A DNA stretch of 64,000 nucleotides, from positions 11,361,001 to 11,425,000 of the forward strand of contig BSYQ01000001.1 in the NCBI GenBank assembly GCA_030272585.1, in the 5' to 3' direction. A program made the translations under genes and the position numbers. The notes under the pieces are model-generated. The model worked only from the letters and a program-made list of their open reading frames with translations, searched no databases and was not told where the DNA came from. Of this stretch, positions 700 through 38,200 are shown one piece after another (the first letter of the stretch is position 1; each line of letters starts with the position of its first letter). The DNA is from Bryopsis sp. KO-2023 (Eukaryota; Chlorophyta; Ulvophyceae; Bryopsidales; Bryopsidaceae).

Positions 700-2469
700 A
701 TGCCAAAGCACAGCCCGATCATGTGGCGCAGTGGTGATAAGGCGGTTGAGGGAAAGGAGTCGAGTGGAAAACAACTGGGTGGCAGCGGAAAAACGAAAGG
801 CAGTGGCGGCGAGAAAGGCGGAAAAGGAAAAAGTGGAACTCTCGCCGACGCTTGCCCACCCAGAGGGGAACCCAAACCACTTATCACACCACCTAAGGCG
901 AAAATCATGAAAACTCTCCCAGCTCCTTCGGTGCTTTCGAAACTTCGGAACTTCGAAACATCGTTGCTCAAAGGAACCTCCAAGATCGTAATTCGCCCAC
1001 CGACAGAGTTGCCGGAAAAACTGCCGGAAAAACCTAGTTCCAGAACAGGAAAAACACTCGACCGGGACGCCGACCCAGCTACTCTCCAAGCTAGGTGTCA
1101 ACGGTTACAGGACGATGTGTTGGAACTCCGTGCAGAACGCGACGCACAACGCGCGCGGGCGGATCAGGCAGAGAAGCACCTGAAAAAGTTTGAGGGTGTA
1201 GCTCAAAGACTCTGCAATCAAGTAACCCAACTTGAACACGATCTGGAAATCGCCCGGCAGGCGAGAGGAACCGCTGAACAGGAGCTGAAACAGCTTCACA
1301 AAGAACTCGATTCTGCGAACCAGACGCAGAAGAAGCTGAAAGCGCAGCTGACGAAACAGCAGCCGCACCTGACGTCCACAGACGAAAGGTCGGCCTGGCA
1401 AACGGCTGTGTACTCGTCTGAGGCACAGTCCGGGTTGATGAGCCGGTTGCTCCACAGCGTTCCCGCACGCCTTGGGGACTAAGTGGAAAACCTTTGTCGG
1501 GCGACGATGGACGACATCATCGAGCAGGGTGCTGGAGCTGCTGCTGCGATCAGAGACGGAGAGGAGCCTGTCTACTACGGCAAAGGAAACGTTCCGGTTA
1601 ACCACCGGCTAGCCGGGTATGACTATACGCAGGTGGACAAAACGCTCGAGAGAATCAGAAATCGTGCACCGGGGCACTTTGACGTTCCCGACGTTGCAGA
1701 CGATATGATCTCAGAGCCACAACCCAGAAGAATCCGCGACCTGACCGGGGGACAGACCGGGGGAAAGACCGACGAAAAGTCGGCGCCCAAGAAAAGGAAG
1801 GAGAGAGAGGAAGAGGAGGCGCTCGCCGACATGTCCAAGAGGTTCAAGGACAGGCGTGGGGAAAAGCCACCGATCTGCTTGTGGTGCTATTCGCCGCCGG
1901 CGCTGGCGGATAGCTACGTGATCACCACATGCACGAGCCACACGGTGTGCCGAACCCACTGGAACCTCATGATTATCCTCGTGCGCTTATACGGGGTGTG
2001 GCAGGAACAGCGAATCGACCCGCCACAGGTTCAGCTGAAGGACCTACATTTGGACATGCGGGAGCCAGACTTCCAGCCACTCCTTCAGGCTCCACCCACG
2101 ACCCAGACTCTCACCGAGTGCTATCAGTGCTTGCGAAGGGACATGGGCTTTCCGAAAGGCCTTGCCCTGAAGCGCTTGGGTCCGTTGGTGAAAAAGTGGG
2201 CGGAGGAGTATGAGAAGCAGGAAAAAGAGAGAACACCCGAACCAGAAACAAAAGGAGAACAGGACCCAGAACAGGACGAAGGAAAAAGTCCTTCCGTGTC
2301 CAGCAGGAGTCCATCCTCGGAGCCCTCGTCTTTGGGACCTCTTCCTCCACCTTTGGATGAGGATTTCCCTCCTTTGGATGTGGATGAGGACGAGCCTCCG
2401 ATCGACTTGGTGGCAGAGCCAGTCGATGAACCAGCTGACGAACCAGCTGAACAACCAGCTGGCGGCTGA
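700..2469 (+). pseudogene. ORF3 of element A1 (coiled coil plus RING-like module), broken copy
   Basis: This copy of the third ORF of family A is nearly identical to the whole ORF3 of A2 at 27408-29177. It begins with a Lys/Gly-rich segment (MPKHSPIMWRSG), passes through a long charged coiled coil rich in Arg, Gln and Glu, and reaches a Cys/His module around 1866-2130 with CLWC, a C-x2-H-x2-C-x2-H-W core and CYQC. It ends in an acidic tail of Glu, Asp and Pro repeats. It lies just upstream of the 3' LTR, the place where envelope genes sit in some Ty3 elements, but has no signal peptide or convincing membrane segment. About one break is visible, so this copy is called a fossil. Confidence 0.8.
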
Positions 2470-3371: not shown

Positions 3372-3373
3372 GT

Positions 3374-3385
3374 TGGTTTCGGAGC
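3374..3385 (+). other. Primer-binding site of element E
   Basis: TGGTTTCGGAGC lies two bases inside the 5' LTR. It would pair with a tRNA ending in GCTCCGAAACCA. The same site is used by the five other LTR families in this window that keep a 5' end. Confidence 0.8.
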
Positions 3386-3994
3386 AAGTGACGATTAGCG
3401 CACGTTTTCGGCTGCTACAGCTCGCACACGTATTGGAATTGGGATTCCAAGGTTGCAAAAAGTATCTACAGAAAAAGAGCTTTCCAGAACATTTTGTCGC
3501 TTTGTTATCGGAGTTCAGACGAGCGAGATATGGTCGTTTAAAGATCCTGACGGTTTTCAGGGTGGCCTATTGGGGTTCGTTTGAGTTCGCGAAGGAAAAC
3601 TTGGGGTGTTTTCTTGTTCACTGAGTGTTTTACCCTAGGTTAGGGTAAGGGTCAGGTCAAGTACCCTAAGACAAGTGTTGGAGAGTTTTGGTGGTGCTGT
3701 GTGCTTGTTTGGGTCCATAGGGCTTGTTGCTACTCAAAGGGGTGTTTTCTTTTGGGTGGATAAGCAAGTGAAAGTGGGCTGAGGTTTTTCTGGAAACCTA
3801 CAAACATCAGTGAGGGCTGTGACTGGGGTTGCTGAGATTTTTCTCCTTGAGCTAAGATCAAGACCCTAGAGAGCTCTAGTGTGTGTGTGTGTGCTCTCGA
3901 GAAGCCTTAGTGCTACATAGCATACCAAGGGCAGTTGTGTCTTGGATGGTGGAAAGAGTACAGTTGTACTGAAGTGCTTGGAGAGCTTCAGTGA

Positions 3995-6160: not shown

Positions 6161-6167
6161 TCATCAG

Positions 6168-8678: not shown

Positions 8679-9449
8679 GAAAAGGGTCCACCTCTACCAC
8701 CACTACTACTGCTGCTGCAGGAGCAGCAAAGACTGCTACTGCAGCTGCAAGGATCACTACTGCTGCACACTGACTATACAGTCAAAGAAGGTGCAACAGG
8801 CAATGTGACTGAGCAAAGTAATGAGTGCTGCAAAGCATCATTACGTCAAGAATTATACAAAGGAGTATGAGCAGTTGCTGCAAAGGAGAACTAAGTGCAG
8901 CAACGAACAGACACAGTTGAGTCAGCAACGCTGCAGGGGAAAGCATGACTGCTGCAAAGCAAAAGGGTCATGACAAGACGTCTACAATAGTATTACTTTC
9001 CCTTGCGCGACAATGAGGAAGGTGTAGTAACACCGTGACAGACAAGCACAACAGTCTATGACTGACATCGGGAGTGCTGCGGAGATCGCAGCAGCGTCGC
9101 GCTGCAGGAGATGCAGCACGTGAGAGGGATGCAGCATTGGCGGCAGAGATCACGTGATATGTCGACAAGCTGGCATCGAGAGTGGGAACTTCGTGTGAGG
9201 CGTCAGCCGTCACTGCAGCGAGAGTTAACGAAGGCGCAACAAAGGCGCGACTAACCTTCTAGAGACTCGAAGAAGGGTTGAAAAGAGACGACACGCTGTC
9301 GAAGTTCCTAGTCGACTAGGCGGAAAGTACAGTCAGGAATAGAGGATGCAAGGAAATAAGAAGGGCTTTGTGGTTGTTTGTATGTCTTGGTTTTGTGTAA
9401 AGAAGTTCCTCTGAGTCGTAAGTCGTTCGAAAAAAGATAAGTCGTTTCA
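8633..9449. mobile_element. 817-bp solo-LTR-like insertion in E
   Basis: The sequence has ends TGTAACGACT and AGTCGTTTCA, which are inverted repeats with one mismatch, and a 5-bp target duplication AAGAT at 8628-8632 and 9450-9454. TG...CA ends with a 5-bp duplication indicate a solo LTR of an LTR retrotransposon not otherwise seen here, or a very short LTR element. The interior is rich in CTGC/GCAG words, with the phrase TGCTGCAAAG recurring several times. No ORF of note is present. Confidence 0.8.
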
Positions 9450-9452
9450 AAG

Positions 9453-10520
9453 ATGGTTCGATGTGTTGCTACACATACGACTTGTGATGCGGTTGAATCG
9501 GCGAGGCTGTTTGTTGGTGAGGTTTTCCGTTCACACGGTCTTCCTAAGACTCTCATCAGTGACAGGGATACAAGGTGGACGTCAAAATTCTTCAAGGAAT
9601 TGTGTCGTACCTTGGGAGTCAATCAGGCGTTATCGACGGCTTTCCATCCACAGACTGATGGTCAGACCGAAGCGATGAATAGGGTCCTCGAGGATACCCT
9701 GAGACATTTCGTTGGCCCGCGCCAGAATGATTGGAGTGATTTGTTACCAGTGGTGGAATTTGCAATGAATAATTCCAAGTCAATGGCCACTGATGAGACG
9801 CCGTTCTTCTTGAACTACGGTAGAGATCCGTGGACGCCGTTGACGGTGCAACTCCCTACCAGAGGATCAGGTGATCAAGGTGGGACGAGTAAAACCCAAG
9901 TGGGGGTACCGGCGGTGAAGAAGATGACTGAGGACATTCGCGAGGCGATTGTCAAGGCAAAGCGGTGTTTGGAAGCGGCTCAGCAAAGGATGAAATCTTA
10001 TGCTGATGCGCGCAGACGTCCGGTAGATGTTCAAGTGGGAGATATGGTCTTGCTGGATGCTAGACATATTAAACTGAAACATCCCGGCAGGAGGAAGTTG
10101 TTGCCACGATGGTTGGGTCCTTTCCGCGTTTTGGAAGGTGTCCAAAAGCGAAGGTCGATGGCCGAACAGGTTGCATTCCGGCTGGAACTGCCTGAGTCAC
10201 TTCCGATCCACCCGGTCTTTCATGCTTCACTTCTGAAGAGGTATTGGAAGCATGGTAGGACACAGCCTCCGCCACCTCCAGTTGAGATTGAGGGTGAGCT
10301 TGAGTATGAGGTTGAGAAACTCCTCGACTACCGAGAGGTAAAGACAGGTCGACGAGTAATCCCGCAATACTTGGTGAAGTGGTTGGGATACTCGCATGAG
10401 CATAACTCGTGGGAGCCCGAAGCAAATCTGGAGAATGCTCGGGATATGATTGAGGAATATAAGAAACCAACGTTGGTTCCCCTGAAACAAGTGCGTCGAA
10501 GTAGGCGACTTCGTTCGTGA
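9453..10520 (+). pseudogene. pol: Integrase core and chromodomain of element E
   Basis: The frame encodes the integrase catalytic core with the second Asp (LISDRDTRW) and the Glu-bearing TAFHPQTDGQTEAMNRVLED, then a GPY/F module (LPRWLGPFRVLEG, IHPVFHASLLKRY). It ends in a chromodomain of about 50 residues (YEVEKLLDYRE, QYLVKWLGYSHEHNSWEPEANL). Chromodomains of this type read histone marks and steer integration into heterochromatin in the Tf1/MAGGY-type chromoviruses. It lies immediately after the 817-bp insert and is separated by it from the rest of pol. The tail is basic (RRSRRLRS). Confidence 0.9.
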
Positions 10521-11090
10521 CTTGTGTAGGGTTGAGTGTTTTCTTCGTGATCAGGAAGGGGAGTACTGATATGAAGAGGGGTTCGTGATCAGAAAAATCA
10601 AGTTGTTTGTATGAGCAGAAATACTTTCAACTAATGAACCTGCCTTAGTTGACGGTTAGCTACCTTGACTTTGGGTTTCTCGCATAATGGGAGTCGACTT
10701 GCTTCCGAAACAGGAAGAAGAAGTTGCAAAAGAAGAAGTGTCGGGTATCGCATCTTCTTACTGCATAGGCGGATGTGCAGGTGCGAGAGTGTGGATATCA
10801 ATTCGGGAGGAATTGATATGGTGTCTTGGTTCGCCACCAGGAATGGGTGTGTTGGATGTTGGTAGAATCAGTGGGACAATAGTCAACTGATTATCCATTG
10901 TAGAGAGATGTGGGTGGTCCGCATAGCTAAAGGGGTAACCGATAGCTAAGGTACAAGAGTATCTTGTGAACCCATCTGCTCTATTGACCACACGAGGATA
11001 ACTGCTCCAGGTTATCATGGTATGTTGCAATAGCAGCATATGCTCCAGAGGCACGAGTCACCAGGTGGAGACTCATCGGAGGGGGAGGAC

Positions 11091-11330
11091 TGTTATGCCC
11101 TCCTTGCCTGAGTGTGCCGCCTCCACTAGCCATGTGGGTGGCGTGGTGTAGTGGGTGGTCGATGTCACATCCCCCTGATGGGTGATGTGACTGGACAGGG
11201 TGTCCGCCTAGCTTGCTAGGTTCCTCCACGTGGTTGATGGGACCCATGGGGTTGGAGGGTTAAAGGACTTCAAGGGGCTGTCCAGGGGGCTTCTTTTGGC
11301 GACAAGGTCGTGCAGGAGAGGTTCTAAACA
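11091..11330 (+). repeat. 3' LTR of element E
   Basis: A 240-bp LTR with TGTTATG and TAAACA ends lies right after a GGAGGGGGAGGAC purine tract. Bases 11131-11330 match the 5' LTR. Confidence 0.88.
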
Positions 11331-11598
11331 GGTTAACAATACAAGAAAACCGCATCCAAGTGTTTTATGTCGATCTTGGATGTGTCGTGTTTCATTTCAT
11401 GTCTCAGCAAATCACGAATTGTAGGGAAGGGGTGATGTTGAAAAGTAGTTATAAGGGCTAACTTCAAGAAACGTGAAAATTTTCAATTTGCTTCCATACA
11501 ATCAAGGTGTGTCACAATCAGAAGCAATCCTTTCAAAATTTACCCTATCAAATCAATTTTAGTTGCAAATATATTTGATTCTTCGTTGAATTGGCCAA

Positions 11599-14858: not shown

Positions 14859-16385
14859 TCAAACGAAGGAGTCCAATTCCCCGTCCCTAATATCAAAAAA
14901 ACCCTGATTGGTCACATCAATCTCCACAGGTTCCGCAAGCTCCGAGTTGCTCAATAAAGCCTCGGTTGGCAAGTCCACAGTCTCCGTCAAATCCACTTCC
15001 ATAACCCCACTGGCTGGCAAGTCCACAGTCTCCGTCAAATCCACTTCCATAACCCCACTTGGTCCTATTTCGGAACTCGGCCCCTCTCTTTCATCCACAG
15101 TTTGAGCGTTTGCATCATTGTTTGGGGACTCGATCGGGTTCACTTCATCCAAGTTCAAGAGTCTTTCAAACAGTTCGTCCAACGGCACTTCGTCACCGTC
15201 CACGGCATCCTCATCATCGGGTGGATCTTGCTCAATTCCCTCGGGTGCTGAATCCCAACGACCACTGCCAAAAAGAAAGCTCCTAGCAATAGCCCGACAC
15301 GCTTCATTCCCTTTTTCTTCCAAGAATGCATCCAACAGCCCGGTCTTGGCCCAACACTTCTCAATCATCTCCCTTCGACTCAACATCTCTTGTTGTGCCA
15401 CTCCTAGCCATTTTAATAAACGACTCCTGAGTGACTTTGTGTCGGTTGGCAGGTTCATCTCGTCCTCTGGAATTCCTTGATTCATCCGATGAACGACAGC
15501 CTCAGCCAATTCTGCCCCGAATTCACGTTTCACCACGTGTTTCAAAACACGATTGAGGGCCTGGTCGCAAGGCTGGGCCTTGCCTGTGGTGCCAGGTGGA
15601 ACGAACACGAGATGCCAGTTCTTGAATTGGTCGTTAAACCAACCCAAAAAACATTCCGACACATGAACGGACCAACAGTCCATCAAAAGCACCACAGGGA
15701 GGGTTTTGGGGTCTCTGCCCTCGCATGTTCCAGCCACATATGGTAGAACGGATGTTTCAATAAACTGTTGAAGGCAACGCTGATTTGACCAGTGCTTTCC
15801 AGTACCACTCCACGTAGCGTGCACTCCCTTGGCCTTCGCCTCTTCCACACATTGTTGTGAGGGCAACACACGGTTTGTCTTTCCCGCAAATATTATTTGA
15901 CAGTCCAACAACTGACCGTCAGCTGAAATACAGTATGTTCCTGTCACCATTCTTTTGTCCGATCCCCCCACCAAAGGAACTTCCTTTGCGCCTGTCCTCT
16001 CCCATGTTCGTGCCCCCCCCCCCGCCATCAACTGTAATCCAGTTTCGTCCATATTTAAAACACGTTCTTTCGGAATATCAAATGTTTTGATCAAATAAGC
16101 AACTCGTAATATGAACTTCTCCACTTTGGCCTCCCAGTCCACCGGTAACTTGCTAGCACATGTTGTGCCCACTCTCCACGATAACCCAAGGTGATTCATA
16201 GCAAACGTCCTCACCGTTTGGGATGCAAACTTCATAGAATTTTCAGGGTGATGTTTCTGGAATGCCCCAATGATAAGACTTCGCAAAACAGTGAGCGAAA
16301 GGGGTGCACCTTTTTTTCTGGTTGCACCAACTGCTTGTAAAACCGAATCAGCAACATCGGGGAAGCGTTCTGCCCAAGGTTCCAT
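14859..16385 (-). CDS. pogo-like transposase, DDE domain
   Basis: This 508-residue protein has a DDE_1-type catalytic domain. The three acidic residues are seen as MDETG (Asp113), LLMDCWSVHVSE (Asp236) and TGKAQPCDQ (Asp274), giving 37 residues between the last two. The QPCDQ context matches the QPLD of pogo and Tigger. An N-terminal helical region (residues 1-100) may be part of the DNA-binding half. The C-terminal 130 residues are acidic and contain a 16-residue direct repeat (GVMEVDLTETVDLP twice). The protein would cut and rejoin the element ends in the nucleus. The ATG is immediately preceded by the TAA of the upstream ORF in the same frame, so the two could once have been one protein of about 700 residues, or be joined by read-through. 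Confidence 0.88.
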   Translation of the reverse strand: MEPWAERFPDVADSVLQAVGATRKKGAPLSLTVLRSLIIGAFQKHHPENSMKFASQTVRTFAMNHLGLSWRVGTTCASKLPVDWEAKVEKFILRVAYLIKTFDIPKERVLNMDETGLQLMAGGGARTWERTGAKEVPLVGGSDKRMVTGTYCISADGQLLDCQIIFAGKTNRVLPSQQCVEEAKAKGVHATWSGTGKHWSNQRCLQQFIETSVLPYVAGTCEGRDPKTLPVVLLMDCWSVHVSECFLGWFNDQFKNWHLVFVPPGTTGKAQPCDQALNRVLKHVVKREFGAELAEAVVHRMNQGIPEDEMNLPTDTKSLRSRLLKWLGVAQQEMLSRREMIEKCWAKTGLLDAFLEEKGNEACRAIARSFLFGSGRWDSAPEGIEQDPPDDEDAVDGDEVPLDELFERLLNLDEVNPIESPNNDANAQTVDEREGPSSEIGPSGVMEVDLTETVDLPASGVMEVDLTETVDLPTEALLSNSELAEPVEIDVTNQGFFDIRDGELDSFV

Positions 16386-25795: not shown

Positions 25796-26953
25796 TCTCT
25801 ATTGTAACTTACAATACAATCACAAGCCACACTTCATGACTATCAACCATCGGTTTCAAAACACTTCACATTGCATTCTATCTCTTTATCAACACTTTCA
25901 TCTTCGACCATCAACATCCATCACCCATATCCACACCAACAACCTCCCGTCAACATCAACAACAACACCAACACAATATATCCATTCAAACATTCTCCAC
26001 TCACTTTTCAAAACCCAACACCCATAAGAAAGATCCACCAACCGAAGGGCCGTCTTGACCGCCTCGGGAGCATCGCCGCCGCCGGCGTTTTCCCCTCAAA
26101 ACTGCAGATTTTTTCAGCTGTTTTCTGTTGCGTCTGGTGCGCGAACCACTCACCGGAATGTCGCGTGCTCTTTTCGATCGGCTGGGAAAGTTTCCGTAGA
26201 TAGTCGTAGACTCCTTGTTTGTGTGATTCGGAGGTGTTTTGGACTAGTTATGACCGTTTCTGTGAGGGCGCCTCGAAATCTCCGGTGGAGTCACGGTTTT
26301 CGATCGAGTCACACGCGTTGTATCGGCGCTGATGTGGCTATAACTTGACCAAAAAAGGTAAATGAGGATTCCAGAGGTATCTACGGAAACTTTCCCAGCT
26401 CCTCGAAAAGAGAGCACTTCATTCTGATCACTGTGTCGAACGATATGGGCTATCAAAGTCGTCAGTTGTATTTTACAGTTTTTTCGAGGAAACTGCCGAT
26501 TGCGTTTTTTCCTATCTTTGAGGGCGGTTATTGAGACACTCAGAAATTGGAATCACGTTTTTTTTTTTTTAACTTGGAGTATGTTGTATGATTTGTGATA
26601 TGATATGAAAATGTTGGAGATTTGACGTCTTTCTGACGTCCGCAGATGTATGCAAAGTTGGTACTTTGTTAAAGTTTGATTCGACTCGAAAAAAAACTTA
26701 AGTTTTTTCGGGAAAAATGAAAGTTGATAAAAAACTTAAGTTTTTTCGACGAAAATCTGAATCGCCAAAAACAGACCAAACAAGTAAGGATCCAAGTGCT
26801 TAGAAACCACGAATCCTTCTCTATCTCCAAAACTAGAAAGAATTCTCCCTTTTTTTAAAATCTTAATCTTTATATAATCTGATTGTGCACAATTCTATCC
26901 TTGAGAAAATTTTCCAAAAACACACAAAACACACAATTTTTTAGTACTTAAGG
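25796..26953. other. Non-coding stretch left of element A2
   Basis: No credible gene was found. It holds an imperfect ~38-base inverted repeat (26165-26202 with 26378-26417), CTATAACT-type sequence also seen near 38700, AAACTTAAGTTTTTTCG palindromic words near 26700, and the left end of the 156-bp tandem array (about 26800-26953) into which A2 inserted. Confidence 0.6.
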
Positions 26954-26985
26954 TGATAAGGGGGTCTAGGACCCCGAGACACAAG

Positions 26986-27020
<35 letters not shown>

Positions 27021-27123
27021 TCACTGGGAAGATTAATTTTTACAGGAGGGCCCCCTGCCCTATAAACCCTGTCGTACATCCCATTGTACTACACAATTAC
27101 CCAAAACCCGAGTTCTACTATCA
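26954..27123 (-). repeat. 3' LTR of element A2
   Basis: 170 bp, TGATAG to TTATCA on the minus strand, with an inner AC8/AG9 microsatellite. It is preceded on the minus strand by the polypurine tract GTGGGGGGGGGGACAAAT. It is identical to 37446-37615 by eye. Confidence 0.95.
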
Positions 27124-27407: not shown

Positions 27408-29177
27408 TCAGCCGCCAGCTGGTTGTTCAGCTGGTTCGGCAGCTGGATCATCGACTGGCTCCGCCACCAAGTCGATCGGAGGCTCGTCCTCATCCAAATC
27501 CAAAGGAGGGAAATCCTCATCCAAAGGTGGAGGAAGAGGTCCCAAAGACGAGGGCTCCGAGGATGGACTCCTGCTGGACACGGAAGGACTTTTTCCTTCG
27601 TCCTGTTCTGGGTCCTGTTCTCCTTTTGTTTCTGGTTCGGGTGTTCTCTCTTTTTCCTGCTTCTCATACTCCTCCGCCCACTTTTTCACCAACGGACCCA
27701 AGCGCTTCAGGGCAAGGCCTTTCGGAAAGCCCATGTCCCTTCGCAAGCACTGATAGCACTCGGTGAGAGTTTGGGTCGTGGGTGGAGCCTGAAGGAGTGG
27801 CTGGAAGTCTGGCTCCCGCATGTCCAAATGTAGGTCCTTCAGCTGAACCTGTGGCGGGTCGATTCGCTGTTCCTGCCACACCCCGTATAAGCGCACGAGG
27901 ATAATCATGAGGTTCCAGTGGGTTCGGCACACCGTGTGGCTCGTGCATGTGGTGATCACGTAGCTATCCGCCAGCGCCGGCGGCGAATAGCACCACAAGC
28001 AGATCGGTGGCTTTTCCCCACGCCTGTCCTTGAACCTCTTGGACATGTCGGCGAGCGCCTCCTCTTCCTCTCTCTCCTTCCTTTTCTTGGGCGCCGACTT
28101 TTCGTCGGTCTTTCCCCCGGTCTGTCCCCCGGTCAGGTCGCGGATTCTCCTGGGTTGTGGCTCTGAGATCATATCGTCTGCAACGTCGGGAACGTCAAAG
28201 TGCCCCGGTGCACGATTTCTGATTCTCTCGAGCGTTTTGTCCACCTGCGTATAGTCATACCCGGCTAGCCGGTGGTTAACCGGAACGTTTCCTTTGCCGT
28301 AGTAGACAGGCTCCTCTCCGTCTCTGATCGCAGCAGCAGCTCCAGCACCCTGCTCGATGATGTCGTCCATCGTCGCCCGACAAAGGTTTTCCACATAGTC
28401 CCCAAGGCGTGCGGGAACGCTGTGGAGCAACCGGCTCATCAACCCGGACTGTGCCTCAGACGAGTACACAGCCGTTTGCCAGGCCGACCTTTCGTCTGTG
28501 GACGTCAGGTGCGGCTGCTGTTTCGTCAGCTGCGCTTTCAGCTTTTTCTGCGTCTGGTTCGCAGAATCGAGCTCCTTTTGAAGCTGTTTCAGCTCCTGTT
28601 CGGCGGTTCCTCTCGCCTGCCGGGCGATTTCCAGATCGTGTTCAAGTTGGGTTACTTGATTGCAGAGTCTTTGAGCTACACCCTCAAACTTTTTCAGGTG
28701 CTTCTCTGCCTGATCCGCCCGCGCGCGTTGTGCGTCGCGTTCTGCACGGAGTTCCAACACATCGTCCTGTAACCGTTGACACCTAGCTTGGAGAGTAGCT
28801 GGGTCGGCGTCCCGGTCGAGTGTTTTTCCTGTTCTGGAACTAGGTTTTTCCGGCAGTTTTTCCGGCAACTCTGTCGGTGGGCGAATTACGATCTTGGAGG
28901 TTCCTTTGAGCAACGATGTTTCGAAGTTCCGAAGTTTCGAAAGCACCGAAGGAGCTGGGAGAGTTTTCATGATTTTCGCCTTAGGTGGTGTGATAAGTGG
29001 TTTGGGTTCCCCTCTGGGTGGGCAAGCGTCGGCGAGAGTTCCACTTTTTCCTTTCCCGCCTTTCTCGCCGCCACTGCCTTTCGTTTTTCCGCTGCCACCC
29101 AGTTGTTTTCCACTCGACTCCTTTCCCTCAACCGCCTTATCACCACTGCGCCACATGATCGGGCTGTGCTTTGGCAT
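27408..29177 (-). CDS. ORF3 of element A2: coiled coil plus RING-like Cys/His module
   Basis: This 589-residue protein starts at ATG and lies between pol and the 3' LTR. Residues 1-110 are Lys/Gly/Pro-rich. About 120-245 form a charged coiled coil (QDDVLELRAERDAQRARADQ and onward). About 350-390 are basic and Glu-rich (PKKRKEREEEE). Residues 393-477 hold a putative zinc module: Cys393, Cys396, Cys411, His414, Cys417, His420 followed by Trp, then Cys474 and Cys477. The tail is acidic and Pro-rich (QDEGKSPSVSSRSPSSEPSS). Ligand order C3-H-C-H-C2 recalls RING fingers, though the last gap is long. No signal peptide or membrane anchor is seen, so it is not an envelope. The Trp-containing core recurs in B1. 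Function unknown. An E3-ligase-like or RNA/protein-binding accessory role is only inferred. Confidence 0.88.
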   Translation of the reverse strand: MPKHSPIMWRSGDKAVEGKESSGKQLGGSGKTKGSGGEKGGKGKSGTLADACPPRGEPKPLITPPKAKIMKTLPAPSVLSKLRNFETSLLKGTSKIVIRPPTELPEKLPEKPSSRTGKTLDRDADPATLQARCQRLQDDVLELRAERDAQRARADQAEKHLKKFEGVAQRLCNQVTQLEHDLEIARQARGTAEQELKQLQKELDSANQTQKKLKAQLTKQQPHLTSTDERSAWQTAVYSSEAQSGLMSRLLHSVPARLGDYVENLCRATMDDIIEQGAGAAAAIRDGEEPVYYGKGNVPVNHRLAGYDYTQVDKTLERIRNRAPGHFDVPDVADDMISEPQPRRIRDLTGGQTGGKTDEKSAPKKRKEREEEEALADMSKRFKDRRGEKPPICLWCYSPPALADSYVITTCTSHTVCRTHWNLMIILVRLYGVWQEQRIDPPQVQLKDLHLDMREPDFQPLLQAPPTTQTLTECYQCLRRDMGFPKGLALKRLGPLVKKWAEEYEKQEKERTPEPETKGEQDPEQDEGKSPSVSSRSPSSEPSSLGPLPPPLDEDFPPLDLDEDEPPIDLVAEPVDDPAAEPAEQPAGG

Positions 29178-29796
29178 TCTCTTTGTTGGCTGCGCTTTGT
29201 TCTCCGACTAGTCTCCGACTTTTCTGTATGCGCGCCGAGAATAACCAGGCCAAAATGATCGCAAGTCTGCTTTAAGATACGCTAGGCGTATTAGCTAACG
29301 TACCTCGGTAACGTGACACTCTATGGAGGTCGCCGTCACCACACGGGTTTGTGCCTATTTGATTTTACCCTAACTTGCTTATGTCAACTCAGTTCCACCT
29401 GCGGCGCAATCACGTGACCTCCAGGTCGGACATTAGCCCATCACTTGATCCAATGTCCCCATCACCTGTTGTCAGTCGCTATGAGCGTGTGAGTTGTGCG
29501 TTAGGTAAACCTCCCCGGAAAGAAAACTGACCCCTAGCCCGTCCTGCGAACCGTTCACAGTTCTGTCACGGGAAAAGATAGCAACCCGTTCGCCGGAAAA
29601 GATGGAAACTTTCCCTAGGAAAAGATGGAAACTTTCCCTAGGCTTTTCCGGGAGTTCTACTTGGTGCTCTTTTCCTAAGTCTTTTTGGTATCCCATCTGG
29701 ATAGCGTTCCAAATCGACTTTCTCGGCTTAATATTTTTCCCCCAGCTGGAAGGATAGTATTAAGTCGAGCGTGAACAGAGTGGTAATGATCCCTGT
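29178..29796 (-). other. Gap between pol and ORF3 of element A2
   Basis: These 619 bases have no ORF of note. A 24-base unit containing GGAAAAGATGGAAACTTTCC occurs twice in tandem at about 29594-29642. Just upstream of ORF3 on the minus strand, a CATACAG precedes AAAAG and could be a splice acceptor for an ORF3 mRNA, but this is inference. Confidence 0.5.
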
Positions 29797-32700
29797 TTAG
29801 GTTCGAGTTCTGCGTTGGGCCCTAGTCTTTTTCTTAGACTGGGTCACTTGTTTATTCTCCGGTTTGTTGGCTAAGTACTCCTTAAGCAAGTCCTGGGCAT
29901 TGGCCAGGTGGCTTTCTGGCTCCCAGGTGGATTCCATCAAATCGTAGCCCTTCCAAAGGATCAGGTACTCCTTGCGAGTAGTGCCCCGATCTCTGAGGAT
30001 GCGCTCGACCTCGAATTCGATGGTTCCATCCACTAGCTCCCCCTCTGGAGCGTCTATCTCTCGCTGATCGTCATCAAGCCGAGAGTAAGCCTTCAGTTTC
30101 GACACATGGAAAGTTGGGTGGATTTTCCAGTGGTCGGGAAGGTCAAGACGGTAGGCGACAGCCCCAATTCGGCTAGCCACCCGGAAAGGTCCAACAAATC
30201 GTCGGCGGATTTTCGGTGGGATTTTCTGAAGTGAAGCAAGGGGAATATACTTGCTTTGTACCAGCACTTCATCGCCAACCTGAAAATCCACTTTCCTTCG
30301 ACGTTTGTTTGCTGAGGTGCACATGCGGTTCTGTGCCTCTGCGTATTTCGCCTTAGCGTTTCGCATTTGGTCGTCCATTCGACGTACCATCTCAGCCGCC
30401 ATTTCCGATTCATCGCCCGTCCGAACTCCCTTCCTGGCAACAACTATCTGCCCCATGTTCTGGCCATACAGAAGATGGGCTGGCGCGTAGCCTGTGGAGA
30501 CATTCCGTGAATTATTTGCGGCAAATTCCGCGGTCGGCAAATAATCCACCCAACGGTCTGGATACCGTTCCACATACGGACGCAGGAAATCCTCCAGCAC
30601 CCGGATGGTGACTTCCGACTGCCCATCCGTTTGAGGATGGTATGCAGTGCTCATCCGGAGCTGGGTACCTAAAAGTTTGAAAAGGGAGGTCCAGAACAAA
30701 CTTGTGAACCTTGGATCCCGATCCGAAACTATGATTTTAGGCAGCCCGTAGTGTTTGTATATGTTCTCCACGAACAGCTTTGCGTATTCTGGCGCCGTGA
30801 TAGTTTTGTTACAGGGTACGAACCTCGCATACTTCGTCAATCGGTCTACAAAGACAGCGATTGCTGTGAAGCCATGGGAAGACGGTAGGTCGGTAACCAA
30901 GTCCGTCGTGATCTGTTCCCATTTCTGGTCTGGGATAGGCAACGGCTGCAAAAGACCTTTCTGTCTTTGCAAGTCCGATTTGTTTAGTTGACAAGTTGGG
31001 CACGTTTTCACGTATGCCTTTACGGCTAACCCAACGCCTTTCCACCAGTAACTGCGGGTAAGTACTTCGGTCATGCGGTCTGCTCCAACATGACCTGCAC
31101 TGGGAACGTCGTGATGCTCTTCCAGAATCCGTTTCTGGAAAGAAGCAGGGACCACAAGCAAACTAGGACCTGGGTCTGTCTTGGTATAATACAGGAACCC
31201 GTCGTCCAGCTTATATTGCGGAGAAACCCCTCGTTCCATCCTTTCAAAGATAGGCTTGAGTTGTTCATCACTTCTCAAAGCCTCTTTCCATGCCTCCTTC
31301 TCTGCCACTTCCCAAGTGGAGAGGTTATTGAGCTGGTCTGGCGGACCAGGAAGGCTCCGGGATAACGCATCAGCCAAGACATTGGCTTTCCCCTGGATAT
31401 AGACGATTTTTGGACCTATGGATTGGAAAAACCCTGAGTTTAACCACCGGGTTTGGGTCCGCGACAACGTGCTCTGGTTCATGAAGTGGGTGATCGGTTT
31501 GTGGTCCGTCAACACCTTCACACCCCCATCGCATCCCTCAAGGTAGTGTCGCCACTGGGCTAAAGCATATGCTATTGCCCCCAGCTCCCGCTCATATGCG
31601 GAGTATCGCGTTTCAGCTGGTTTTAATCGTCTGGAAAGGTATGCAATTGGTTGCAAACCTTTCCCATGATCCTGGGTAAGAACCGCTCCATATGCAGTTC
31701 CAGATGCATCCGTTATTACGGTGTACTCCTTAGCCGGATCAGGAAGGAGTAAGATCGGTGCGCGGCTAATCCGATCCTTAAGTTCGTTGTAGGCATTGCG
31801 TTGGTTCAGCCCCCATTCCCAGACAGTATCCTTCTTGGTTAGATCTGTCAAGGGACTCGCAATCCTAGCGAACTCAGGAATGAACTTACGATAGTAAGAC
31901 ACCATTCCCAGGAAACTTCGCACATCAGTGACCGAAGTTAACTCCTTCCATTGTTGAATAGCCTTAACCTTATCCTGCATCGGTTGAAGGCCTTTTTCCG
32001 ACAAATGATACCCCAGGTAGTCCGTCTCTGCTACCCCTACTTCGCACTTACTGGCTTTTGCGTATAACTTATGTTTCCGCAACCGTTCAAAGACCAGTTT
32101 TAGGTGCTCGACGTGCTCTTCCACCGAGTTGGAAAAGACCAGGATGTCGTCGATAAACACCACTACAAATTCGTCAAGGAACTCCCCCAGCAAATCCTGA
32201 ACCATGGTCTGGAACTGGGCTGGGCAGTTGGTCATTCCGAACGGACACACGAGAAATTCGAAATGTCCGTATCTCGTCCGGAATGCCGTCTTGGGAGTAT
32301 CCTTGGGTCGAACGGGAAACTGCCAGTAGCCTGAGCGGAGGTCGATCTTCGTATAGATCTTCGCTCTGGCGAGACGGTCCATTAACTCCTCAGGAAGAGG
32401 GAGTGGATACCTATTCTTTACCGTGAATTTGTTTATCCAACGGTAATCCACACACATTCTCAACCCTCCGTCTTTCTTGGGAACAAAGAGTATGGGTGCG
32501 CCCCAGGGACTCTCGGAGGGTCGGATCTTCCTTTGTTCGAGGAGGTAATCCACCTGTGTCCTAACTTCGTCCAGCTCGGCTGGAGAGAGTTTGTACAAGG
32601 GACGGTGGATTGGGGTCATTTGTTCGTCCTCCAGGTCCACCTTAAATTCGTGGCCTTTTCTGACTGGAGGAACGCCGGGTGGTAAGTCTTTCGGGAACAC

Positions 32701-33915
32701 ATCCTTGAAACTTGTGAGGACAGCCTTGATCCTTGGGTCGAGACCCGAATGCATTACCTTTTCCACATCCGGCTGGAGATAAGCTGGTGTGGTTCCAGTA
32801 GCGTTCAAACGCTCTTCTGGAATTCCCGGATATGGATACTGCATGAGATGTGCCATATCTTCCGGGGTGGTTGGTCGCACAACCACAAGGTATGCCTGAT
32901 CAATTTCTGGACTGTTCTTCACGAGCGAGAATAACTTCTTCGCTGAGACTGTATCAATAGCCGGTGCTAGGTGCTGTAAGTAATCTGATGGTCGTTCCTT
33001 CATAGGAACAGTTGTCCATCCAGCACCCACTGGAACTTTGAGCGTGCCTGTTGCAAAGTCCAGTTTGGGATTGGTCTGCATCAACCAAGGAAGCCCTAGT
33101 ATCATGTCATACGAAAGGTTTGGGAAGACGTCTGCGGAAAGGGTTGTGGTATAAGTACCCATCCTGAGCTGCAAGTCTTCGCATCGCCGATCAAGTGAAC
33201 ATAGGGTTCCGTCCGCCAAAGTGACTCCCTTTTTGCACTCGGTTGTTTCGAGTTTCAGTCTCGTAACTAGTTTCTTGGTAATGTAGTTCTCCGTTGCACC
33301 ACAATCAACATAGGCGGAGATCGGTACTCCTCCTAATCTGGCTCGGATCTCATATCCCATAAATTTCAAATGGTTAGGACCTCCTAGTGGTAACATACGC
33401 TCAGAAGGTGAATACTGACCTTCATCCACTTTTTGTCCTCTACCTGTTCCCTGAACAGGGGCTGCTGACTCGTCAGTTGGTGGTGAGCGAGTGGCAGGCT
33501 TATTTGATTCCCTTGCGGGTTCCCTTCCTTCCGGACTTCGTTTCGTTCCTTGAGGCGGGAACGATACCGAATTCTCAGTTCCTTCAGGACTACCAAGGTC
33601 TCCATGAACAGAGTCGACAGGTTCCGAACTTGATTCTGAACTTGTCCTAGTAAGCGTGCTGCACTTACTGGATCGAGTTTCCAACTTAGCACTCATAATC
33701 GATCCCTCTGCACCTTGGGTAGCATTCTTTTCTATTTCCCCTTGTGCTCTTTTATTCACTTCTGCATTTCGAGCTAACCTTTCTTTTCTAAGAAGTTTCT
33801 GGCGCTGCTTATATCTGTGACGGCGTGCCCTTCTGCGTTTCGCCGAACGAGTCTGGGCTCTGTTCATCCGGCTTTTTCGTTTAACCATTTCTTGAACTTT
33901 TCGCCCTCTGGACAC
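29797..33915 (-). CDS. pol: pol of element A2: protease, RT, RNase H, integrase, chromodomain
   Basis: This open frame of 1372 residues overlaps the end of gag in a different frame, as expected for a Gag-Pol product made by ribosomal frameshifting. A basic N-terminal region (residues 1-60) precedes the protease (AYVDCGATENYI, near 201-212; YDMILGLPWL). RT follows, with IDLRSGYWQFPV and the catalytic VFIDDILVFS, then RNase H (VITDASGTAYGAVLT to ANVLADALSRS). The integrase has an HHCC zinc domain (HVGADRMTEV, CPTCQLNK), core motifs TTDLVTDLP, IVSDRDPRF and TAYHPQTDGQSEV, and a GPY/F module (RRRFVGPFRVASRIG). It ends with a chromodomain at 1300-1350 (EFEVERILRD, EYLILWKGYD, STWEPESHL). It looks complete and is typical of chromoviruses. 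Confidence 0.95.
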   Translation of the reverse strand: MSRGRKVQEMVKRKSRMNRAQTRSAKRRRARRHRYKQRQKLLRKERLARNAEVNKRAQGEIEKNATQGAEGSIMSAKLETRSSKCSTLTRTSSESSSEPVDSVHGDLGSPEGTENSVSFPPQGTKRSPEGREPARESNKPATRSPPTDESAAPVQGTGRGQKVDEGQYSPSERMLPLGGPNHLKFMGYEIRARLGGVPISAYVDCGATENYITKKLVTRLKLETTECKKGVTLADGTLCSLDRRCEDLQLRMGTYTTTLSADVFPNLSYDMILGLPWLMQTNPKLDFATGTLKVPVGAGWTTVPMKERPSDYLQHLAPAIDTVSAKKLFSLVKNSPEIDQAYLVVVRPTTPEDMAHLMQYPYPGIPEERLNATGTTPAYLQPDVEKVMHSGLDPRIKAVLTSFKDVFPKDLPPGVPPVRKGHEFKVDLEDEQMTPIHRPLYKLSPAELDEVRTQVDYLLEQRKIRPSESPWGAPILFVPKKDGGLRMCVDYRWINKFTVKNRYPLPLPEELMDRLARAKIYTKIDLRSGYWQFPVRPKDTPKTAFRTRYGHFEFLVCPFGMTNCPAQFQTMVQDLLGEFLDEFVVVFIDDILVFSNSVEEHVEHLKLVFERLRKHKLYAKASKCEVGVAETDYLGYHLSEKGLQPMQDKVKAIQQWKELTSVTDVRSFLGMVSYYRKFIPEFARIASPLTDLTKKDTVWEWGLNQRNAYNELKDRISRAPILLLPDPAKEYTVITDASGTAYGAVLTQDHGKGLQPIAYLSRRLKPAETRYSAYERELGAIAYALAQWRHYLEGCDGGVKVLTDHKPITHFMNQSTLSRTQTRWLNSGFFQSIGPKIVYIQGKANVLADALSRSLPGPPDQLNNLSTWEVAEKEAWKEALRSDEQLKPIFERMERGVSPQYKLDDGFLYYTKTDPGPSLLVVPASFQKRILEEHHDVPSAGHVGADRMTEVLTRSYWWKGVGLAVKAYVKTCPTCQLNKSDLQRQKGLLQPLPIPDQKWEQITTDLVTDLPSSHGFTAIAVFVDRLTKYARFVPCNKTITAPEYAKLFVENIYKHYGLPKIIVSDRDPRFTSLFWTSLFKLLGTQLRMSTAYHPQTDGQSEVTIRVLEDFLRPYVERYPDRWVDYLPTAEFAANNSRNVSTGYAPAHLLYGQNMGQIVVARKGVRTGDESEMAAEMVRRMDDQMRNAKAKYAEAQNRMCTSANKRRRKVDFQVGDEVLVQSKYIPLASLQKIPPKIRRRFVGPFRVASRIGAVAYRLDLPDHWKIHPTFHVSKLKAYSRLDDDQREIDAPEGELVDGTIEFEVERILRDRGTTRKEYLILWKGYDLMESTWEPESHLANAQDLLKEYLANKPENKQVTQSKKKTRAQRRTRT

Positions 33916-36701
33916 TTACTTTGAATATGTCCAGTTTTTCCACACATATAGCATTTAGGATTTGCGCCTCCACCTCCACGTCCTTGATTCCTGCCACCAC
34001 CTCGTCCGCGACCTCGGCCACCACCCCTTCCCCGACCTCGACCTTGGCCAATGTTTTGTGCCTGGTCTGGCTGGGGTTGCTGTTGGCCACCCATCTGGTT
34101 TGCCTTATCAGTCTGGGGTTGGTTTTGCTTTTTATTTTGGCCTCGGCCTTTACCTCCGCGCCACCGTCCGCGGCCACGAAAGTTTCCTCCTCCGGATGAG
34201 GCAATAGCATCAAGACGAGCCGCCGTCTGGATCGCCAACTCAATGCCGTGCGGCACTTGAGCCACAGTTTGTTGTTTGATATGGAACTTTAACCCGTCCA
34301 CGAAGAAGAAGTATTGTTCTTCATCTGTCATGTTGGGAATCCTCAGCACTTGTTCTCGGAAAGCAACAATGTACTGGTGCACTGACCCAGTCTGTTTCAG
34401 GTTCCGTAAGGAGCGCCTGGCTACATCAGACATTCTGGTGGGTTCAAATGCTTGGACCAGTTCCTCAACAAACTCAATCCAATTTGTGATTGGATGTCTT
34501 TTTCCTTCCCTTGTACGCAGATCCTGGACGTTTCGCCACTGAGCAGCAGCTCCGGTCAGGTTACTGCGGAAGAGCCTGAACCATACGCTCTCATCGATGT
34601 CCAAAGTCTGGCAATAGACCGTCATTTCTAGTTGCCAATCTCTGATCCATCGCTGACCATCACCTGAGAAGGCCTTTGGGAAAGGAATACGAACGGATGA
34701 CGGAATCCGTCCGTGGCGATCTTGCGGAGCAGCAAAGCCTTGGTTAGGGTCTGGAGGACCCCCACCTCCACCTCCGCCACCTCCACCTCCACCTGGGTGG
34801 TACGGCCATCCACCACCCCCACCTCCACCTGGTCCGGAAAGGAAAGATCCCCCTCCACTTCCAGGTGGTCCTCCTCCGCCTCCGCCTCCACCCCCAGGTC
34901 CACCTCCGGGTCCCCCTCCACCACCACCAGATCGATTTCCACCCTGTGGCTGGCTTGATGGAGTTGAGGGATAAGAACCCCACCCGTAATACGGGTTACT
35001 CGCGGAAGGTGCTCCGTATTGGTTTACGGATTGTCCCAAACTTGGTTGGGTGCCTGGTTGGTTTCCTGGTTGCATACCAGGTTGGGTGTTAAGAGCCGGG
35101 ATTAGATAGAAGACAGACAGCGGAACTGTCGTCAGTGGTTGTGTTAACATGGATGTCGTTGGTGGTAACACACTCGTTACAGGGACACTAAGTATGGGTC
35201 TGGCTGTGCCAAGTTGACCCGCTTGGCCGAATGGTGCGCCCATTGCCATAGTTTGTGGCGGCGCAAGACTCCATGCCGTCCGTGTTCTTGGGGATGTAAA
35301 TAAACCCCAGGAAGATGGAGAACCTCCACCCACGGAGTCTGCGACAGTTGTCGATGGGCTGCGACCACCCAATCCTCCTAATGTGGTTAGACCAGTAAAA
35401 GTACTCAGATCCGGAACAGGTGGTACCGGAAATGGGATACTGGTAAGAGGAGTGGATGACACAAAAGGAACGCTTGCGGCTGCAGCTGTCGTGGCCGGCA
35501 AAGTGACCGTGCCAGTTCCTGCTCCCATCATACCCACTACAACTGGGTCCTGAGCCGGGACTCGAACTTTCTCCCGTTTTTTCCACGCACTCAGTGTTTC
35601 TTTGAACTTAGAATCAACATACTTGGATAGGTTACTTTCCAAAGTCTGCTGTTTCTCTGTCGCGTCTGATAGAAATTTCTCCATCAGTTGCATCGACCTG
35701 TGTCCTCCTGCAGTGTCATCAGAACTCACACTGCCTCGTTCCGCTCTTCTTTGTTTGCGTTGTTCTTCGGCTTGGTGTAAGTCCCGCAACACTTTTAGGC
35801 TCTGGCTTACCAAGCCTGAGAGTGTGTCTAGCTGGCCTTGGTGGTCGACTTGCTCGCACCGAGACTCATCAGTAGTCCGAGCTAGGTTATCCAGCGTTGT
35901 CTGCTGTAGGCGCATACCTTCAGCAACTTTTGTCAGAGAGGCTTGCAGAGACAGAATTTGTTTCTCCCTGAGCGCATTGGTCTGATCAACAGCTTCAGCT
36001 TGGGTACGGGCTGATTCCTGCAGTCGATCAAGTCGCTCTTGCAGAATAGCCTCGTTATCATATTTACCCAACAGATTTCTGTCGATCCGCTCTGTGGACT
36101 TTATATTCTGTTCCAGCAATTTGTGCTGGTGGTCTAACAATTTCTGTTGTCTTTCTATAGACTCAGTATTTTGTTTGACCAGCTTCTGGGCCTCCTTCCT
36201 GACATAGAGCACGAACTGCTCATATTCCTCTTTCAGTTCGCCTTTTAAGGTCGACTCTGCACGCTGAACCTGCTCGTGAACTTGTCCTTCCAGGTTTTGT
36301 GCGACCTCTTGCACATTCGAGGAGACAGCGGCATACACATGCTCAGCTGTGTCCCTAAGTTGTCCCTCGTCCACACCATGAACGTGCACCTCCTGCTGGT
36401 GGACGTTTATGTGCTGATGTTCATGGTGAAGGATGTTGGTGACTTCTATTGTCGGGACGTCCTCCATATCCTCATCATACTCCTCGTCCCCGGACTCTTC
36501 CGACTCTTGTTCAGAGTCTAAGTCTGCGTCCGGTTCCTCAACCTGGTCGGGTACATGTCTGTCCCACTGCAAATCATGTATTTGCTGCGCTGGTGGGTGC
36601 ACCACATCTGGATAAACCACGGGAATTAGTTGGTTATCCACCACCTCTTCCTCCTCAGGAGGTGGAATAGGTGGTAGCTGTGGCGGCGTCTGGCCGGACA
36701 T
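33864..36701 (-). CDS. gag: gag of element A2
   Basis: This 945-residue Gag is long for the family. An acidic Pro/Glu-rich start (residues 1-85) is followed by a His/Val-rich patch (HHEHQHINVHQQEVHVHG), a long coiled coil (about 110-330), a Pro/Thr/Ser-rich linker containing VVVGMMGAGT, and Gly-rich runs (about 590-650). Then comes the retrotransposon Gag core beginning SSVRIPFPKAFSGDGQRW. A basic Arg/Gly region precedes the single CCHC knuckle at 917-930 (CYMCGKTGHIQSKC). The coiled-coil and Gly-rich N-terminal extension is shared with the B1 protein. It would assemble particles and package RNA. Pol starts in its last residues in another frame. Confidence 0.93.
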   Translation of the reverse strand: MSGQTPPQLPPIPPPEEEEVVDNQLIPVVYPDVVHPPAQQIHDLQWDRHVPDQVEEPDADLDSEQESEESGDEEYDEDMEDVPTIEVTNILHHEHQHINVHQQEVHVHGVDEGQLRDTAEHVYAAVSSNVQEVAQNLEGQVHEQVQRAESTLKGELKEEYEQFVLYVRKEAQKLVKQNTESIERQQKLLDHQHKLLEQNIKSTERIDRNLLGKYDNEAILQERLDRLQESARTQAEAVDQTNALREKQILSLQASLTKVAEGMRLQQTTLDNLARTTDESRCEQVDHQGQLDTLSGLVSQSLKVLRDLHQAEEQRKQRRAERGSVSSDDTAGGHRSMQLMEKFLSDATEKQQTLESNLSKYVDSKFKETLSAWKKREKVRVPAQDPVVVGMMGAGTGTVTLPATTAAAASVPFVSSTPLTSIPFPVPPVPDLSTFTGLTTLGGLGGRSPSTTVADSVGGGSPSSWGLFTSPRTRTAWSLAPPQTMAMGAPFGQAGQLGTARPILSVPVTSVLPPTTSMLTQPLTTVPLSVFYLIPALNTQPGMQPGNQPGTQPSLGQSVNQYGAPSASNPYYGWGSYPSTPSSQPQGGNRSGGGGGGPGGGPGGGGGGGGGPPGSGGGSFLSGPGGGGGGGWPYHPGGGGGGGGGGGGPPDPNQGFAAPQDRHGRIPSSVRIPFPKAFSGDGQRWIRDWQLEMTVYCQTLDIDESVWFRLFRSNLTGAAAQWRNVQDLRTREGKRHPITNWIEFVEELVQAFEPTRMSDVARRSLRNLKQTGSVHQYIVAFREQVLRIPNMTDEEQYFFFVDGLKFHIKQQTVAQVPHGIELAIQTAARLDAIASSGGGNFRGRGRWRGGKGRGQNKKQNQPQTDKANQMGGQQQPQPDQAQNIGQGRGRGRGGGRGRGRGGGRNQGRGGGGANPKCYMCGKTGHIQSKCPEGEKFKKWLNEKAG

Positions 36702-37431
36702 GTTTTTGTTTGAATTTCCTGGAATTTTGACGTACTAGGAGTGTGTCCGGAAAGTTTCCAAACTTTCTGGTGACTTGGATGCGAACTTGTTTCAGTTCTG
36801 GTTGCACTCCTAGTCGCTATCTTTTCTTGAACCTTACTAGGTCAGAAATAGATAGGAGTTTTACACTTGACAACGTCGGGTGTTAATTTCCCGTTCGCGT
36901 TCTGTCAGCCGACTAGGTTAGTACCTTGGCCGGTGATTCAGTCTACGACTAACTGTAGAACCAGTCGTGACTCAGGCGGTGCGGTAACCGATTGCGCGCT
37001 GGAAAGAGTGACAATGAGTCACCTGCCAGAACGACTGTTTTTCGTGTTACTGGCAGAAGCGTCAGTCGACGGAAGTTGGTCGTTCCGGACGACGTTCTTT
37101 CCTACGCCGGTTCGCACTTTCGGTTGTTCGCCTGCGCGTTTCGGGTTTACGCCGATCGTTGCTCTCCTTGCACTGTTGGAGTGCTTTCGCCTTGTTTTCC
37201 TTTAGATCTACAGATCTGTAGGTTTCCAGAAATTCGTTCACTGGACTCCGATTCTTTTGCGACTTCGCCTGACGTTTTCGAACGACGACGCGAGCACGTC
37301 GTTCGAAGGATAGCTCTCCTCGCGACCCCTGGAACACAGAGTTCCAGATCTGTGGGATTTAGTAATCCCTAAGGTCAGATCTTTGGGGGGGGGTTCGCGA
37401 GTTCTCCTGTGGGGTGCGCCTGGCCTCGCCT
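36702..37431 (-). other. Leader of element A2
   Basis: About 730 untranslated bases separate the primer-binding site from gag. The string GGAAAGTTTCC (near 36755) also occurs in the pol-ORF3 gap, as its inverse, and in the inverted repeat at 26165-26417. No ORF fits the element. Confidence 0.55.
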
Positions 37432-37443
37432 GCTCCGAAACCA
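37432..37443 (-). other. Primer-binding site of element A2
   Basis: TGGTTTCGGAGC on the minus strand, two bases inside the 5' LTR. Confidence 0.82.
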
Positions 37444-37445
37444 AA

Positions 37446-37477
37446 TGATAAGGGGGTCTAGGACCCCGAGACACAAG

Positions 37478-37512
<35 letters not shown>

Positions 37513-37615
37513 TCACTGGGAAGATTAATTTTTACAGGAGGGCCCCCTGCCCTATAAACCCTGTCGTACATCCCATTGTACTACACAATTACCCAAAACC
37601 CGAGTTCTACTATCA
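37446..37615 (-). repeat. 5' LTR of element A2
   Basis: 170 bp, identical by eye to 26954-27123, with TAAGG just outside. Confidence 0.95.
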
Positions 37616-38200
37616 TAAGGTTGTTTAAAACACCAATGGGTGTATATGTCACCAACTATCAACAATTTCAAAGTTTTGTAGGAAGTGAAAAAGTTAGAAA
37701 TTCGAATATGTATAATTTTATCCTTGAGATGTTTTTTGGAAACCACACTTAACATACACTTTCGTAGTACTTAAGGTTGTTTAGAACACGAATCGTTGTA
37801 TATCTCACCAATTACCAATATTTTGAAAGGGTTGTAGAAAGTGAAAGAACTCGAAATTCGGATATCTATAATTTCACTTTCGAGAAGTTTTTTGAAAAAC
37901 ATGCGAAACACATAATTTCGTAGTACTTAAGATTGTTTAGAACACGAATCGTTGTATATCTCATCAACCACCAATATTTTGAAAGGGTTGTAGAAAGTGA
38001 AAGAACTCGAAATTCAGATATCTATAATTTCACTTTCGAGAATTTTTCTGAAAAACATGCGAAACACATAATTCCGTAGTACTTAAGATTGTTTACAACA
38101 CGAATCGTTGTATATCTCACCAACTATCAACAATTCGAAAGGGTTGTAGAGAGTGAAAGAGTTCGAAATTTAAATATGTACAACTTCGCCCCCTGAGTAA
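37616..38200. repeat. Tandem array, unit about 156 bp, interrupted by A2
   Basis: The phrase AGTACTTAAG recurs at about 37765, 37922 and 38078. Between these, units share GTTGTATATCTCACCAA, AAAGGGTTGTAGAAAGTGAAAG and ACATGCGAAACACA. The last partial unit fades out near 38200. The left part of the array lies at about 26800-26953, on the other side of A2, so the element landed inside it. The array looks like a short satellite or minisatellite. Confidence 0.85.

Follow-up and report, generated by a model that had tools for sequence, protein, structure and literature searches.

The stretch of DNA analyzed here (64,000 nt, hereafter the window) contains a whole Ty3/chromodomain element, A2, whose third open reading frame (ORF3, 27408..29177, minus strand, open for 589 aa from its ATG) encodes an accessory protein that is constrained to roughly the same degree as the pol terminus, carries a zinc-type module of no assigned class, and has apparently been exchanged between element families. 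When LTR retrotransposons carry accessory genes, these are frequently interpreted as remnants of env or assigned no role at all. Comparison of copies and relatives within the genome demonstrates the conservation of ORF3, the selection on it, its module and architecture, its unequal divergence relative to gag and pol, and its absence from some sister elements. On this sequence evidence the product looks like an accessory regulator, a function that we infer; the ubiquitin ligase role raised in a preliminary description of the window is not demonstrated.

The host element reads from 37615 to 26954 (minus strand, as are all of its features) and had been described as whole and young, which agrees with what we found: its 170-bp LTRs (5', 37446..37615; 3', 26954..27123) are identical, have the ends TGATA...TATCA and are flanked on both sides by CCTTA as a target duplication, and both gag and pol are open. 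A putative primer-binding site (TGGTTTCGGAGC, 37432..37443) lies 2 nt from the LTR, a G-run precedes the 3' LTR, and the 744-nt leader (36702..37445) is without any ATG, as were 50 of 5000 dinucleotide shuffles. The gag gene (945 aa, 33864..36701) includes a CCHC knuckle at 19.1 bits, below the 20.8 cut-off, and pol (1372 aa, 29797..33915) encodes PR, RT, RNase H, IN, and a chromodomain. A2 thus has the gag, PR-RT-RNaseH-IN order, C-terminal chromodomain, LTRs, and target duplication of a Ty3-type chromovirus, and a spacer (29178..29796) separates its pol from ORF3. Tandem repeats with a 156-bp period adjoin the element (37616-38187 and 26876-26954); at the other flank the repeat unit is 65-75% similar, as if A2 had entered an array. 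The window also holds another young Ty3-type element (3172-11331) with 201-bp terminal repeats that are 100% identical, a 486-aa ORF at 4700-6160, and pol pieces at 6168-8678 and 9453-10520 with a chromodomain; between its pol and its right repeat there is no ORF of at least 280 aa. Further ORFs in the window encode 508 aa with a DDE_1 endonuclease domain (14859-16385) and 1126 aa with no Pfam match at 1e-4 (55311-58691, plus strand).

ORF3 follows pol at the position of env, and the coordinates and length first reported for it proved exact. As had also been reported, the A2 protein lacks the membrane anchor of an env-like protein: averaged over 19 residues, its Kyte-Doolittle hydropathy peaks at 0.93. 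Residues 126-222 (28512..28802) form the coiled coil that had been proposed: their heptad power was reached by none of 5000 shuffles, and there are sub-threshold Pfam coiled-coil matches. For representatives of family A, to which A2 belongs, and of families B1 and B2, introduced below, the N-terminal heptad signal was matched in 0, 5, and 2 of 5000 shuffles, respectively. A conserved middle block follows (residues 236-384, 28026..28472), of which residues 236-340 are matched by A-type ORF3 only, the blastp match between A and B1 starting at residue 341. The block includes an NLS-like basic cluster, APKKRKER (residues 362-369, 28071..28094), invariant in 30 of 30 A copies, and a basic cluster stands about 30 residues before the module in the one protein considered from each family: PKKRKER in A, KRGKKRTR in B1, and RKRMRPSK in B2. 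Such clusters easily arise in Lys-rich proteins, which is a point against a nuclear reading. The Cys/His module spans residues 393-477 (27747..28001), and the C-terminal tail (residues 496-589, 27411..27692) is mostly gapped against B1 and B2.

A search of the genome (91 Mb, 28 contigs) returned at least 76 ORF3 matches at E <= 1e-3 among the best of 386 candidates scored. There were 62 A-type pol C-termini, at least 99% identical, among the best 150 of 1108 candidates scored; an ORF3 match lies downstream in 57 of these, spanning at least 1700 nt in 43, and five are without a downstream ORF3 among the matches listed. The 30 best-scoring A copies were fetched for comparison: 27 have no stop inside ORF3 and three have one. 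A second family-A copy within the window (700..2466, plus strand) has one in-frame stop, at residue 261.

The preliminary description had argued that ORF3 is kept by selection and had asked for dN/dS across the copies, which turned out to be far from 1: pooled pairwise pN/pS was 0.142 over the 30 copies, with a range of 0.140-0.144 when single copies were left out. The module is the most constrained part (residues 385-495, 0.061), followed by the middle block (236-384, 0.081), residues 1-118 (0.149), the coiled-coil region (119-235, 0.162), and the tail, which is the least constrained (0.304). For the 24 rows shared with the last 200 codons of pol, the values were 0.142 for ORF3 vs 0.135 for pol; L011 was omitted from this comparison for divergence, and L002, L005, L006, L007, and L017 for want of a clean 200-codon frame. 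An earlier pol value of 0.443, from 28 rows that included truncated or shifted frames, was dropped as a yardstick in favor of 0.135. By this pattern of substitution, ORF3 is a real, selectively maintained gene. We find it very improbable that ORF3 was recently acquired from the host and does nothing for the element, a reading that has nothing beyond the position of ORF3 in its favor and has against it the purifying selection, the occurrence of ORF3 in three families with saturated silent divergence, and the fact that no host gene was recognized among the scored genome matches listed for the residue 225-500 and B module queries.

The eight Cys/His positions reported for the module (393, 396, 411, 414, 417, 420, 474, and 477) are exact, with Trp421 directly after the last His of the central group, giving C393-x2-C-x14-C-x2-H-x2-C-x2-H-W-x53-C-x2-C in A2. 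None of the 30 A copies lacks any of the eight ligands or the Trp, and these nine residues are likewise invariant when an A module is aligned with a B2 and two B1 modules (ends trimmed beside the first CxxC motif), the B1 and B2 modules being 29-31% identical to A; the motif common to the three families is C-x2-C-x(12-14)-C-x2-H-x2-C-x2-H-W-x(53-57)-C-x2-C. The long last gap in these four modules holds a conserved R-x4-W and L-x-L-x2-R-x2-D-F-x-P-L. A loose RING-like pattern arose in none of 200,000 composition shuffles of the ORF3 protein. The module is accordingly real, with the same ligands in all 30 A copies compared and in three B homologues that are about 30% identical; as judged from the alignment, it is preserved across saturated divergence, and it is of the kind that would bind two zinc ions.

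The class of this module is a separate matter. RING fingers follow the spacing C-x2-C-x(9-39)-C-x(1-3)-H-x(2-3)-C-x2-C-x(4-48)-C-x2-C with C3HC4 or C3H2C3 ligands and a last gap of at most about 48 residues, and a coiled coil plus a RING is a common plan of E3 ubiquitin ligases. The suggestion that ORF3 is a RING-type E3 ligase tagging host or element proteins draws on this plan, on the ligand order and first spacings, which do resemble those of a RING, and on a zf-RING_5 profile that touches residues 393-421 (E 0.023 for the module alone, E 1.3 for the whole protein). The resemblance ends there: the sixth ligand is His, so that the center reads C-x2-H-x2-C-x2-H, and the last gap of 53 (A) or 57 (B) residues is too long. 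Moreover, zf-RING_5 reaches 15.1 bits against a cut-off of 27.9 and covers the first half of the module only, a Pfam scan of two B modules matched no family, and the profile search of the module against zinc-finger families that had been called for gave no match above cut-off. A profile search of solved structures named no RING protein among 15 chains at E <= 10; the best match was the small subunit of DNA primase (E 0.12, positions 13-44 only). RING E3 membership is therefore not supported by the sequence, and we consider the ligase role unlikely. The four central ligands at exact x2 spacing recall LIM domains as much as RING fingers. LIM domains follow C-x2-C-x(16-23)-H-x2-C-x2-C-x2-C-x(16-21)-C-x2-C/D/H and likewise have eight Cys/His ligands; the x2 spacings agree with those of the module, whereas the ligand identities, including those of the center, and both long gaps, including the 53-57 gap, differ. 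A single-sequence AlphaFold model of the A2 module alone had a pLDDT of 42.

Searches beyond this genome returned nothing comparable. Against about 5.8 billion protein sequences there was no match to the whole of ORF3 (8000 candidates scored), to residues 225-500 (3245 candidates scored), or to the B1 module (171 candidates scored). Neither viral nor prokaryotic contigs yielded a match when scanned, and PDB sequence searches gave nothing significant. We would like to note that these empty protein and contig searches, in collections that may include few genomes of fungi, do not show ORF3 to be confined to this genome.

Within the genome, a search with residues 225-500 (best 140 of 352 candidates scored) gave, besides family A and relics, several dozen matches with identities of 28-34%, the majority of those listed lying in ORFs 600-680 aa long. 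Those that were opened belong to two further Ty3 families, B1 and B2, and the order gag-pol-ORF3 was found in both copies read through (L031, a B2 copy, and L032, a B1 copy). B1 accounts for most of the 81 matches listed in one further genome search, some being B2, and 20 of 150 matches listed in another are B2, at least 92% identical over most of the module. Two pairs of B1 ORF3 genes gave pN 0.013 vs pS 0.066 and pN 0.042 vs pS 0.142, ratios that are, on these pairs, below 1 but less strict than in family A. Downstream of the B1 ORF3 in L032 (position 8961) there is a primer-binding site and a leader-like stretch, as if two elements were joined head-to-tail via one LTR.

The three genes of L032 and L031 have diverged very unequally: gag is 98% identical (pS 0.093), pol 90% (pS 0.399), and ORF3 40% (pS 0.796, pN 0.426). 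Thus, even the amino acid-changing sites of ORF3 have diverged further than the silent sites of pol, and its own silent sites are nearly saturated; that such differences built up in place after the pol genes separated is unlikely. In 200-nt bins, nucleotide identity is 80-99% through gag, pol (apart from one bin at 75%), and most of the spacer, and it falls to 52% in the bin with the TATA box and the leader and start of ORF3. On the simple reading, this looks like exchange of ORF3 between element families by recombination, the argument being drawn from this one pair; as gag is closer than pol, gag may itself have been exchanged. An excess of silent variation may recur mildly within family A, where 24 copies vary at 8 of 85 four-fold sites in the end of pol vs 70 of 238 in ORF3 (Fisher p = 1e-4), with a locally raised mutation rate as an alternative. 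A bolder version, which we regard as possible but on the doubtful side, is that the unit of exchange is a cassette of promoter plus ORF3, under purifying selection and coding for a nuclear regulator with a zinc module, which recombination at the ORF3 promoter swaps between families as a weapon against host silencing, in the manner of env or VANC. The same pair of elements bears on whether ORF3 might work alongside Gag, in a structural role or in assembly. A coiled coil, the env position, and an ORF3 that is open in most intact-looking copies, with those long matches beside A-type pol, would suit such a protein; its basic NLS-like cluster and lack of a membrane anchor would not, and the disparity between a nearly identical Gag and a far diverged ORF3 in B1 and B2 is unexpected for a tight Gag partner. 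We find this role decidedly unlikely, and return to ORF3 as an accessory regulator.

That ORF3 is accessory is indicated by elements that do without it. Among the matches listed, ORF3 accompanies 0 of 12 pol copies that are 84-92% identical to the pol of A2, and decayed ORF3 relics lie near two of them (C2:8155440 and C5:2428786). Five sister elements were opened, two with ORF3 scraps (L056 and L059) and three without: L057 and L060 align to A2 over the spacer and again at the 3' end, with no ORF3 in between, and inspection of L058 revealed no ORF3. In all five, the frame with pol stays open over 1818-2306 codons, enough length for gag plus pol. The pattern suggests that sister lineages have lost ORF3, whether in a single step or in several, and because it is absent or decayed there, ORF3 would be an accessory, dispensable gene. 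With related elements both with and without ORF3 in one genome, its effect on expression and copy number is directly testable.

The spacer between pol and ORF3 probably includes a promoter for ORF3, as suggested most clearly by B1 and B2. An inverted repeat, ACAAGTG...CACTTGT, abuts a TATA box (TATAAA in B1, TATATATA in B2) in all of the copies looked at (12 of 12 B1 and 9 of 9 B2), and no ATG intervenes between the TATA box and the ATG of ORF3, a distance of 116-119 nt in B1 and 126 nt in B2. The motif CAACCCTCC begins 18 nt after the TATA start in 21 of 21 B1 and B2 copies; 18 nt is nearer than usual for a start site, which speaks against CAACCCTCC in that capacity. In the A2 spacer, at about -100, an imperfect inverted repeat followed by TCTTAAAG (29270..29302), kept in 10 of 10 displayed copies, is a weak candidate for the counterpart of the B1/B2 palindrome and TATA box, and the case for this TATA-like site as the family A promoter is weak as well. 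The last upstream ATG in A2 is 256 nt before ORF3; it is at least that far in 28 of 30 A copies and 161 and 197 nt away in the other two. An ATG-free stretch of this length appeared in 348 of 5000 shuffles for family A and is only mildly unusual. A splice acceptor for ORF3 (a branch-like CTAAT, then AAAGCAG in A2) was rejected, as CGG stands there in 8 of 10 displayed copies; the intron would also span about 8 kb, which is unusual in fungi, the group to which this genome may belong judging by its element types.

These repeats raise the question of whether ORF3 might be a sequence-specific DNA-binding factor, anti-silencing or autoregulatory, that acts on noncoding inverted repeats of the element by a VANC-like logic. 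The coiled coil is of a type suited to dimers, an inverted repeat abuts the TATA box in B1 and B2, ORF3 diverges strongly between families, and there are three copies of the palindrome GGAAASTTTCC in the noncoding DNA of A2, two of them in the spacer (29604-29637) and one just before gag (36749-36759). However, a single short tandem duplication contains both spacer palindromes, and two more lie outside the element, downstream of the 3' LTR (26185-26395); L031 and L032 have single half-sites only, with no second occurrence of the full B inverted repeat, and Pfam found no known DNA-binding domain in ORF3. On balance we view direct, sequence-specific binding as rather improbable.

The combined proposal to which we give a chance somewhat short of even is that ORF3 is an accessory gene encoding an oligomeric nuclear regulator with a zinc module, which acts on the expression of its own element and is made from its own promoter. 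Carried by a clade of chromodomain Ty3 elements as an accessory gene, ORF3 would probably be transcribed from the spacer; its product would oligomerize via the N-terminal coiled coil, enter the nucleus via the basic cluster, a location suggested by that cluster, and contact a partner through the compact Cys/His module, the molecular target being a guess. Its most likely effect would be to raise the RNA output of the element, much as CERV does in Cer1, by acting on transcription, on export, or on escape from silencing; it would thereby improve the spread of the element without being indispensable.

Known systems offer partial parallels, each compared here by its description. A literature search retrieved no described fungal Ty3 protein of the make-up of ORF3; fungal chromodomain Ty3 elements with an extra ORF, as given in a figure legend, are alike in class and in having that ORF, and relatives of ORF3 may thus already have been drawn among them, if not studied. 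VANC proteins are described as binding to noncoding regions and causing silent marks to be lost there (PMC10398659); they resemble ORF3 as element-encoded accessory proteins of a system that diverges fast, in their case in a contest over silencing, and differ in belonging to VANDAL transposons of Arabidopsis. Gene23 of maize Grande, considered along with other additional ORFs of plant elements, is described as an accessory gene between pol and the 3' LTR that encodes a nuclear protein and has its own promoter (PMC7264820). The placement is that of ORF3, for which a nuclear protein and an own promoter are likewise proposed, whereas gene23 is antisense and its host is a plant. CERV of Cer1, an LTR retrotransposon of C. 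elegans, is described as a 517-aa protein with a potential leucine zipper, a candidate NLS, and a Cys-rich region, and as required for export of genomic RNA (PMC10309623). Like ORF3, CERV is an extra, non-env protein of similar size with these same three kinds of feature; unlike ORF3, its mRNA is spliced and has exons in common with gag, and the protein includes a G-protein-like domain. By this description, CERV appears to be the nearest functional precedent for ORF3, the resemblance being one of architecture.
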